Of a stretch of 64,000 bases of DNA, positions 17,518 through 37,445 are shown in pieces. Both the position numbers and the translations under genes were made by a program. Origin of the DNA: an uncultured Actinobacillus sp. (GTDB lineage: Bacteria > Pseudomonadota > Gammaproteobacteria > Enterobacterales > Pasteurellaceae); NCBI RefSeq assembly GCF_945915845.1, contig NZ_CAMEFX010000001.1, positions 62,001 to 126,000 on the forward strand, read 5' to 3'. A model generated the notes under the pieces. It was not told the DNA's origin, ran no database searches, and saw only the letters and a list, made by a program, of their open reading frames with translations. Position 1 is the stretch's first letter; each line of letters starts with the position of its first letter.

Positions 17518-17594
17518 GTAGGGACGCCACGCTTGGCGTCCATTGTAAAAACGAAGCGTAATTTAATTATGGACGCCAAGCGTGGCGTCCCTAC
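17518..17594. repeat. REP/inverted-REP (BIME-like) element
   Basis: Two copies of a 26-bp unit face each other, 17518-17543 and 17569-17594, separated by 25 bp. Each unit starts with the tetranucleotide GTAG and then a hairpin GGACGCCA-cgct-TGGCGTCC. The inverted repeat is perfect. GTAG foot plus imperfect palindrome in opposed pairs is the structure of REP doublets mobilised by TnpA-REP (RAYT) enzymes. Confidence 0.8.
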
Positions 17595-17641
17595 AAATGA
17601 TTTATACGGTAAATAAAATTGATGTATTAAATAAAGAATAA

Positions 17642-17896
17642 AAAAGTAAAAACAAAAAACGTAAAACATCGGTTGAATTAGACCGCTTACTTTCAGCATC
17701 TTGTGATCCTCTGATCGATCAAGATCCTACCGCAATCTATTCACGAATAGTCGCCTATTCAAAAGGAAATCTCAGCGTTTTACCTGCCTTGTGGGAAAGA
17801 AATATCAGCTATGTGATAGACAATTTTGTGCGTAAAAAGTTTTCCGCAGGGGTTGATTTTTTTTTTTTTTACAATAGGGAAGTTTTTATTTTTTAG
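17642..17896 (+). pseudogene. Open frame without start, probable 5'-truncated gene remnant
   Basis: An 84-codon open frame with no ATG, following a TAA at 17639-17641. It reads KRKTSVELDRLLSASCDPL, then IDQDPTAIYSRIVAYSKGN, then LPALWERNISYVIDNFVRK and an out-of-character FFFFYN run translated from a 14-base T tract, stopping at 17894. Base composition is less AT-rich than the genes that follow. The sequence looks protein-like up to about 17850, then degenerate. It could be the tail of a gene truncated when the neighbouring repeat arrived. I do not recognise the family. Confidence 0.4.
17853..17875 (+). promoter_or_regulatory. Homopolymeric T14 tract between -35-like and -10-like hexamers
   Basis: Fourteen Ts (17857-17870) separate TTGA from ACAAT, giving TTGATT at 17853-17858 and TACAAT at 17870-17875 with only 11 bases between. 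The -10 is good (5/6), the spacing is now poor, and slippage of the tract would change it. It lies 37 bp before the start of the 132-residue membrane gene. Confidence 0.4.
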
Positions 17897-17911
17897 AATG
17901 AGGCTTCAATT

Positions 17912-18310
17912 ATGGATTTTATCTTATCTCTTTTAAATTATCTAGCTATTATTGTTTATATAGTAGCAATATTAATTTTTGGAATTCTTTATTTTCTTTC
18001 CTATAAATGTAAATCAAAAATCTGGTTTATTATAGTGCTATTAACATTAATAGTTATATCTTCCGTAATTAACATAGATTTAAAAGAAATAGGTCGTTTA
18101 TATGGTATGGAAAAACCACCTAGCACAGTAGAAATTTTGATAGAAAGTTTTAATTTAAATGGTTTTATACAAACCTTGGTTACAGCTATTTTTTTACCTG
18201 TTTTTCTTGTTAGAGTACTAAAAATAGAAGAGGAAAAAAATAAGGAAAATAAAATGGAAGGTGGCAAGGAAAGTAATAAAAAAGGTTGGTGGGAAAAAAT
18301 AATAAAGTGA
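17912..18310 (+). CDS. Hypothetical AT-rich membrane protein, 132 residues
   Basis: I do not recognise this protein. Three hydrophobic segments are visible: about residues 8-29 (AIIVYIVAILIFGILYFLSY), 36-54 (IWFIIVLLTLIVISSVINI) and 82-101 (GFIQTLVTAIFLPVFLVRVL). The tail is lysine- and glutamate-rich and ends KKGWWEKIIK. The ATG is preceded by GAGG at good spacing. The gene is far more AT-rich than coaD or kdkA, carries no uptake signal and belongs to an island of unknown genes. A T14 tract in the promoter region suggests phase-variable expression. Confidence 0.65.
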   Translation: MDFILSLLNYLAIIVYIVAILIFGILYFLSYKCKSKIWFIIVLLTLIVISSVINIDLKEIGRLYGMEKPPSTVEILIESFNLNGFIQTLVTAIFLPVFLVRVLKIEEEKNKENKMEGGKESNKKGWWEKIIK

Positions 18311-32617: not shown

Positions 32618-33283
32618 TTGCAAATTCCGCATGAAAAAATCAAGAAATCCGCGCTGTTTGCCACGATTATTGTGTTATGTCTCGCCGCGCTTGGGGTCAT
32701 TTTATTTGGCGTAAAGCAATTTCATATTGGTTCACAGCTAGCGAGCCTTAACCAAGTAGCTAATTTGTCACATTTATTAGTTCGACAGCAAACGAATTTA
32801 TTGGCAATGCTCTTATTGAATAATGCCAAAACTGAAAAACTCACGGAAACCTTAGATAATCTTGCACAAGAAAGTTTTGTGATTGATGCCGCTTTATATA
32901 ATGGGAACGGCGAATTAATCGCCCAAAGCCATGGAAGCCAAAGTCTTAGAGCGCAATTAGGGTTGGATGACAATACGGCAGCACGGCACCAACAAATTGT
33001 TGAGCCTATTTACTCCAAAAATGGGGTAGAAGGATTTCTACGCATTACATTTAATAGTCAATATGGGCAAACGACACAAAGTAAAACAAGCCAATTATTT
33101 AAACAGCTTTACGGTGAATTTATTGTCATTTTCTTAGTGGGAATTCTCTTAGCCAGTTCAGTTCATTACTTCCTTAGTCACTACCGCCGCGCGCATCGGA
33201 GACAAGATACGCCCATTAAAATAACTCGAAAACGCCTTGGTAGTAATGCATTGAGCTATCATCGCCGCCGCAGACGTCTATAA
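32618..33283 (+). CDS. smp: Smp/YtjB family membrane protein
   Basis: A 221-residue inner-membrane protein: one N-terminal span (residues 11-32), a periplasmic domain with QESFVIDAALYNGNGELIAQS and IVEPIYSKNGVEGFLRITF, a second span (about 170-188) and a very basic tail (HYRRAHRRQ, YHRRRRRL). E. coli Smp (YtjB) has the same layout and also lies divergent from serB. The start is TTG at 32618, with AGGA upstream. Its physiological role is unknown. The arginine-rich C-terminus is stronger here than in E. coli. Confidence 0.85.
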   Translation: MQIPHEKIKKSALFATIIVLCLAALGVILFGVKQFHIGSQLASLNQVANLSHLLVRQQTNLLAMLLLNNAKTEKLTETLDNLAQESFVIDAALYNGNGELIAQSHGSQSLRAQLGLDDNTAARHQQIVEPIYSKNGVEGFLRITFNSQYGQTTQSKTSQLFKQLYGEFIVIFLVGILLASSVHYFLSHYRRAHRRQDTPIKITRKRLGSNALSYHRRRRRL

Positions 33284-36817: not shown

Positions 36818-36926
36818 AAAATAATCCTAAAATTGACCACACTTTAGCCTACGAAGTGATAAAAGTGCGGTGAAAAATTTGTGCGGAATTATAGCATAGC
36901 ATTACATATAAATTTTTATTTGCTTA

Positions 36927-36957
36927 TTGACAAGAGCCATTTTTTTTTTTGAATAAT
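36927..36957 (+). promoter_or_regulatory. Putative phase-variable promoter: TTGACA - T11 tract - AATAAT
   Basis: A perfect -35 hexamer TTGACA (36927-36932) is followed by a run of 11 Ts (36940-36950) and AATAAT (36952-36957, 5/6 to TATAAT) with a 19-bp spacer. Loss of two Ts would give the optimal 17. It lies 28 bp before the orphan membrane gene's ATG. Confidence 0.5.
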
Positions 36958-36984
36958 AGGGTTAAAAATAACAAGGAGTAATTT

Positions 36985-37407
36985 ATGCAAAAAACTTATC
37001 GAAAATCGTGGTTCCCTTACATTCTTCCAGTAATTATATTACTGCTTACTCTTTTCGGGACTTATGTTGTTATTGTATCAGCGGCACATCAATGGTGGCT
37101 ATTAATACTAATTCTTACGGTATATTCAATAATAGCCATATTGAGATTAAGAGCATTTAAGCTAATTATTGATGAAGATGGCATATGGTGTAGCAGTGGT
37201 ATTTTCCCTTGGGAGAAGAAAACTAACGGCTTACATTGGCGAGATATCAATGGGGCTAATTACACCACAGGATTCATTAGTTGGATTAGCAATTCATACG
37301 AGGTTTATTACTTGAGAAAACCTAACGGAATTTCAAATTACTATAGCCACATTTATAATGGAAAAAAATTTGTTGACGATGTAAATCAAATCGTTAATCA
37401 AAAATAA
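36985..37407 (+). CDS. Orphan membrane protein with PH-like domain, 140 residues
   Basis: Two hydrophobic segments (about residues 12-31, YILPVIILLLTLFGTYVVIV, and 35-53, HQWWLLILILTVYSIIAIL) precede a soluble beta-rich part: LIIDEDGIWCSSGIFPWEKK, LHWRDINGANYTTGF, then SYEVYYLRKPNG. The pattern of DGI..., a Trp and HWRDI resembles small bacterial PH (DUF304-like) membrane proteins, but this is weak. AAGGAG stands before the ATG. The gene is AT-rich and splits the otherwise conserved mnmE-yidC neighbourhood on the opposite strand. A T11 tract in its promoter suggests on/off expression. Function unknown. Confidence 0.6.
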   Translation: MQKTYRKSWFPYILPVIILLLTLFGTYVVIVSAAHQWWLLILILTVYSIIAILRLRAFKLIIDEDGIWCSSGIFPWEKKTNGLHWRDINGANYTTGFISWISNSYEVYYLRKPNGISNYYSHIYNGKKFVDDVNQIVNQK

Positions 37408-37412
37408 AAAGC

Positions 37413-37445
37413 AAAAAGGCATCATCACGATGCCTTTTCTTTTTA
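37413..37445. terminator. Bidirectional terminator between orphan gene and yidC
   Basis: AAAAGGCATC and GATGCCTTTT with a 5-base loop, between convergent genes. Confidence 0.88.

Follow-up and report, generated by a model that had tools for sequence, protein, structure and literature searches.

A T-tract in a promoter spacer as a candidate phase-variation switch for a plasmid-related membrane protein gene in Actinobacillus

Introduction

Between mnmE and yidC of an uncultured Actinobacillus sp., a run of 11 Ts (T11) lies in the spacer of a strong-looking promoter in front of a small membrane protein gene, which raises the question of whether this tract switches the gene by phase variation. 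The locus is part of a window of 64,000 nucleotides, by which we mean the whole stretch of DNA that was analyzed. Phase variation by simple sequence repeats (SSRs) in promoter spacers is known at a small number of Haemophilus and Neisseria loci, such as the TA repeats of hif in Haemophilus and the poly-G tracts of fetA and porA in Neisseria. Other Haemophilus switches act on the coding frame through tetranucleotides, namely CCAA in hgp and CAAT in lic. The locus studied here resembles the hif/fetA type in that a simple repeat lies between -35 and -10 and determines their spacing by its length. Nevertheless, its repeat is a mononucleotide T-tract abutting the -10, and the promoter is a variant of a family-wide class that shares the downstream consensus NGGGAAGTTTT and stands before many unrelated genes; moreover, hif and fetA repeats drive surface genes, whereas the window gene encodes no known surface antigen.

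Promoter architecture

The elements upstream of the membrane protein gene, all on the + strand, are the following:

36927-36932, +, -35 hexamer TTGACA, read from the sequence and kept in the module copies of G043 and G034
36940-36950, +, T11 tract in the -35/-10 spacer, candidate slippage switch, read from the sequence (the G043 copy also has T11, the G034 copy has T10, and the wider class spans T7-T24)
36952-36957, +, -10 hexamer AATAAT, with a spacing of 19 bp to the -35 and at a distance from the downstream AGGG that fits the class
36949-36954, +, alternative -10-like hexamer TTGAAT, 16 bp from TTGACA
36958-36964, +, AGGGTTA, predicted transcript start, kept in the module copies (TATAGGGTTAAAAAT upstream of the G130 homologue)
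36973-36978, +, Shine-Dalgarno sequence AAGGAG, read from the sequence

The first-pass annotation had described TTGACA and AATAAT flanking T11 at a spacing of 19 bp, and re-reading the sequence located every one of these elements as described, with a spacer composed of AGAGCCA, T11 and G. The same holds for AAGGAG directly before the ATG at 36985. Since TTGAAT at 16 bp is also a possible -10, the value of 19 bp applies only if AATAAT is used.

Neither T-runs nor hexamer pairs can carry the case for a promoter switch, because both occur at chance frequency: T10 matches in the 64-kb window number 7 against 7.1 expected, and sigma-70-like hexamer pairs of comparable strength are frequent in DNA as AT-rich as this. 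T-run length by itself was rejected as evidence on the same grounds. For the composite GCCA-T11-GAATAATAGGGTTA, 0 matches are expected in shuffled windows, and this arrangement is far beyond chance.

Recurrence of the module in other genomes

We searched 140 Pasteurellaceae genomes for the promoter module, using the reversed pattern as control, and found it in two of them, the window genome and one congener (G043), with 0 control matches; a third, diverged copy occurs in another genus (G034). The G043 copy is a 65-bp stretch, 84% identical, with the arrangement TTGACA-N7-T11-GAATAATAGGG, and lies upstream of an unrelated lipoprotein gene adjoining a ribonucleotide reductase gene. The G034 copy, TTGACAGGAACCG-T10-GAATAATTAGGTTA, stands ahead of an EexN-family entry-exclusion lipoprotein gene (NF033894 score of 38 bits, cut-off 33), itself alone on the chromosome between rph/pyrE-like genes and a yicC-like gene (names assigned by eye). 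Each of the three genomes thus has the module before a different, unrelated gene, with T11, T11 and T10.

A family-wide promoter class

The module is a variant of a broader layout, in which a -35-like TTGNNN is followed by T7-T24 and then by A[CGT]AAT-NGGGAAGTTTT. A census with the pattern T9-24, TANAAT and NGGGAAGTTTT, allowing at most one mismatch, returned 74 sites in 38 of the 140 family genomes, compared to 2 matches of the reversed control. In a sample of 369 gammaproteobacterial genomes, the only match was in the window's own genome, with 0 in the ~367 outside the family, a contrast that is indicative only, since base composition differs among families. A scan of viral contigs with the pattern gave no match. 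The T11 site itself is not matched by the rule of TANAAT plus NGGNAAG behind T9 or longer, as it carries GAATAATAGGGTTA and not ANAATNGGGAAGTTTT; it fits the looser traits of the class, a TTGNNN-like -35 upstream and GGG just downstream of the -10, and is treated as a variant.

The downstream products that could be identified by eye from translations are mostly pili, adhesins, and lipoproteins. They include Flp pilin, fimbrial subunits, trimeric autotransporters with the MNSIYKIVFNKATQTFTAVSELAKG signal, BapA-like products, TbpB-like lipoproteins, and Sel1-repeat and TerC-family proteins. Among these, the pilin, fimbrial, trimeric adhesin, and TbpB-like genes are of the kind typical of contingency loci. 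It appears that the whole family reuses one recognizable promoter design, which stands before genes for pili, adhesins, and lipoproteins as well as before apparent small RNAs and a mobile gene related to plasmids. Genomes could be searched for this design to find the set of switchable genes in Pasteurellaceae.

In Glaesserella parasuis, many vtaA trimeric autotransporter genes are described as standing under one highly similar promoter (PMC6211672, citing Pina et al.), and that article proposes no T-tract switching for them. Genomes G112 and G113 likewise have many adhesin copies behind a highly similar upstream promoter. Our survey of the open-access literature found no account of this T-tract promoter class or of phase-variable exclusion.

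Besides the T11 variant, the window's own genome has two class sites, one on contig 11 and one in the window:

17857-17870, +, second T-tract promoter, TTGA-T14-ACAATAGGGAAGTTTT, 0 mismatches to the class, before a small membrane ORF (17912-18310)

The contig 11 site (L174, about position 32847) reads TTGACAATACCA-T10-ACAATTAGCAAGTTTA and lies before a gene for a 119-residue lipoprotein.

A gene inserted between mnmE and yidC

The T11 promoter and its gene form a single unit:

36897-37412, +, inserted unit of promoter and one gene, ~0.5 kb, boundaries +/- about 10 bp, missing from the five other species of the genus
36985-37407, +, ORF of a 140-residue membrane protein with an N-terminal two-helix hairpin and a conserved C-terminal domain, with homologues in conjugative plasmids and two other Pasteurellaceae
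37414-37438, no strand assigned, terminator hairpin shared with the convergent yidC, present at the empty site too

In the congener G042, the equivalents of window positions ~36896 and ~37402 are contiguous, forming an empty site, and in G043 the two conserved flanks are only about 60 bp apart. These empty sites bear out the earlier proposal that the gene interrupts the conserved mnmE-yidC neighborhood, and they indicate that the ~0.5-kb unit brought its own promoter and one gene. The protein is missing from 5/5 other genomes of the genus, and the gene is apparently a rare, recent insertion, adjoining the bidirectional yidC terminator. The Haemophilus-type DNA uptake sequence AAGTGCGGT is abundant in the window, in keeping with its place in the Pasteurellaceae, with 55 copies against 0.4 expected, one of them at 36863, just upstream of and outside the insert.

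The membrane protein and its plasmid homologues

The first-pass annotation had considered the product an unrecognized membrane protein. Its membrane nature holds, given the two helices, whereas the label unrecognized does not, since plasmid homologues exist. The protein gave nothing above cut-off against Pfam, NCBIfam, and PADLOC, and a profile search of solved structures gave no match. Matches to RseC_MucC were dismissed as membrane-helix noise. A single-sequence structure model is confident for the N-terminal helices only and models the C-terminal domain without confidence; that this domain looks PH-like is an impression only.

Protein searches of genome contigs and phage proteins found no homologue. 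Homologues occur on 137 plasmid records and on no phages; they share ~30-40% identity across nearly the full length and 22 invariant residues. With the motif DxxG-W-G-PW-G-WRD-A-TGF-SW-SY and the N-terminal helices present, the window protein fits this unnamed plasmid transfer-region family. On several MPF_T plasmids, the homologue gene is flanked by trbM or mpfL on one side and by the relaxase/MobC genes on the other, and on others it lies in an accessory region, once near anti-CRISPR genes. PromA-type and related MPF_T plasmids (e.g., pSN0729-70 and pK1219-2) likewise encode a hypothetical membrane protein, its gene adjoining mpfL/trbM and the relaxase gene. Unlike these, the window gene is chromosomal and solitary, with no mating-pair, relaxase, or conjugation gene adjoining.

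Within Pasteurellaceae, there are only two homologues (G086 and G130, 37-40% identity), each elsewhere on the chromosome. Directly after their start codons, they carry tetranucleotide arrays (13 ACCA units; 6 CCAA-type units), and in both assemblies the start codon and the gene body are in different frames. These CCAA/ACCA runs at the start codon are of the Haemophilus coding-frame type, whereas the window copy has no coding repeat and a promoter T-tract in its place. The G130 homologue is preceded by the stretch TATAGGGTTAAAAAT, which resembles AATAGGGTTAAAAAT of the window, but lacks a T-tract. Three copies of one gene family within Pasteurellaceae carry SSRs, by two mechanisms, and we consider this the strongest argument for phase-variable expression of the window gene.

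The transfer-region homologues and the EexN gene that follows another module copy make a role in plasmid exclusion a reasonable but unproven guess for the window protein. The chromosomal EexN gene of G034 sits behind the same module, with T10. The window protein itself is a two-helix membrane protein of another family than EexN: it lacks the combination of an NF033894 match and a lipobox, having no NCBIfam match, and only the module-linked gene of G034 matches.

Tract length and the case for a switch

For the comparison of tract lengths, sites were grouped by flank similarity, and two further copies were added. In one genome, six adhesin copies whose flanks are near-identical carry T17, 9, 17, 9, 11, and 12, and in another genome, three adhesin copies carry T16, 18, and 17. 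The promoters compared have T9, 19, 19, and 24 for Flp, T19, 17, 17, 17, and 14 for fimbriae, T13, 16, and 17 for TbpB-like lipoproteins, and T12, 13, and 11 for TerC; by gene type, the ranges are T9-24 (Flp pilins), T14-19 (fimbriae), T9-18 (trimeric adhesins), and T13-17 (TbpB-like). Among pairs with conserved flanks, the focal tract differs in 35 of 42, compared to 2 of 8 among control runs of at least 8 and 12 of 63 among those of 6-7 (the latter mostly substitutions), figures to be read with the caveat that control runs are shorter than focal tracts and that draft assemblies miscount homopolymers.

Class spacers extend from about 9 to 20 bp with the number of Ts, and the -35 is fixed. As the -35 stays in place, the number of Ts sets the spacer, and promoter strength must change with it, as expected from established promoter biology. 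With T-runs that readily change length, promoters of the class probably turn their genes on and off at random. Nevertheless, any T-run of 9 or more slips to some degree, so that length variation alone is no proof of a selected switch.

One alternative is that the T-tract is a fixed structural feature, providing A-tract curvature or spacer flexibility for promoter strength or for the response to supercoiling, and that its length differences between species are neutral drift, with no selected switching. The T11 found in both congeneric module copies, those of the window genome and of G043, fits this explanation and speaks against switching; the presence of the class before non-surface genes (the TerC family and apparent small RNAs) fits it too. 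Nevertheless, we find a fixed feature unlikely, because the six adhesin copies shift the spacing by up to 8 bp, which should be intolerable for a promoter of fixed strength, and because in two genera the same gene has an SSR switch of another kind.

The T-tract might instead indicate where a mobile element ends, or a hot spot of insertion, with promoter function secondary. The second T-tract promoter of the window lends itself to such a reading, as it ends a stretch of ~250 bp (within 17600-17912) that is >90% identical to sequence in G042 and Actinobacillus minor, both with T18, precedes a different small gene in each of the three genomes, and loses similarity just past the -10 region; the site apparently reflects the replacement of genes downstream of a shared promoter. 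The unit between mnmE and yidC is itself inserted. Yet its left boundary is about 30 bp upstream of the -35, away from the T-tract, neither target duplication nor terminal repeat is seen, and the class retains its -35, its -10 and the spacing from the start site to the ORFs, all of which makes this explanation very doubtful. At 17521-17600, the window has an inverted repeat, GGGACGCCACGCTTGGCGTCC ... GGACGCCAAGCGTGGCGTCCC, which is also found beside the Actinobacillus minor copy of the ~250-bp sequence and resembles a small transposon-like element.

A chance placement of T11 between promoter-like hexamers in AT-rich intergenic DNA, for which only the chance-level frequencies of T10-or-longer runs and hexamer pairs in the window speak, is highly improbable, being already contradicted by the 84% identical 65-bp stretch at an unrelated congener locus, the third copy in another genus and the 0 reversed-control matches in 140 genomes.

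The reading that we prefer, with good though not full confidence, is that T11 is a slippage-prone SSR in the spacer of the gene's own promoter and switches its expression. The first-pass annotation had put forward such a switch by SSR length between -35 and -10 as a candidate, and this proposal gains support from three independent comparisons, namely the recurrence of the module, the variation of tracts within the class and the SSRs of the homologues, so that phase variation appears well supported by comparison. Replication slippage would add or remove Ts and change the distance from TTGACA to the -10, and expression of the inserted membrane protein would then differ from cell to cell, from strong through weak to none, in a heritable and reversible manner. 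If AATAAT serves as the -10, the 19 bp given by T11 would leave the promoter weak or OFF in the sequenced clone, with an optimum at about T9; with TTGAAT at 16 bp, T11 or T12 would be better. We infer the slippage (its rate and reversibility), its effect on transcription, the ON/OFF state, and the benefit. The count of 11 Ts is to be taken with caution, as the assembly that holds the window is a draft in 85 contigs, and errors are frequent in homopolymers.

Candidate small RNAs and wider implications

Several T-tract promoter sites are not followed by an ORF: L046, L048, L063 (two), L089, L098, L108, L113, L117 (two), L118, L127, L128, L137, and L155 (three). They have the appearance of small RNAs of ~90-115 nt, with a start at GGGAAGUUUU, a 5' hairpin, a conserved (U)UUUAUUCAU that is antisense to AUGAAUAAA start contexts, and a Rho-independent terminator. 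An Rfam search of these sites gave no match, and RNAalifold on the small-RNA alignment recovered the terminator stem only, because the 5' hairpins differ. A strict small-RNA pattern matched 3 sites in the 140 genomes (control 0), and is too strict for a family count. These sites might represent a phase-variable small-RNA family.

The promoter class allows the phase variability of plasmid uptake or of small-RNA regulation to be tested. In the boldest reading, which we offer as speculation and think is more probably wrong than right, Pasteurellaceae chromosomes would carry single, horizontally spread, plasmid-derived conjugation-exclusion genes (the window protein and the EexN of G034), controlled by a portable slippery-T promoter or by CCAA repeats, and a population would thereby toggle at random how open it is to incoming conjugative plasmids; the same class would also toggle small RNAs, amounting to phase-variable trans-regulation.

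Some of the ORF-less sites are in tandem, and several lie just upstream of what appears to be a cmoB-like gene. At L155, three tandem T-tract units (T14, T13, and T13), about 230-260 bp apart, lie upstream of a cmoB-like gene.
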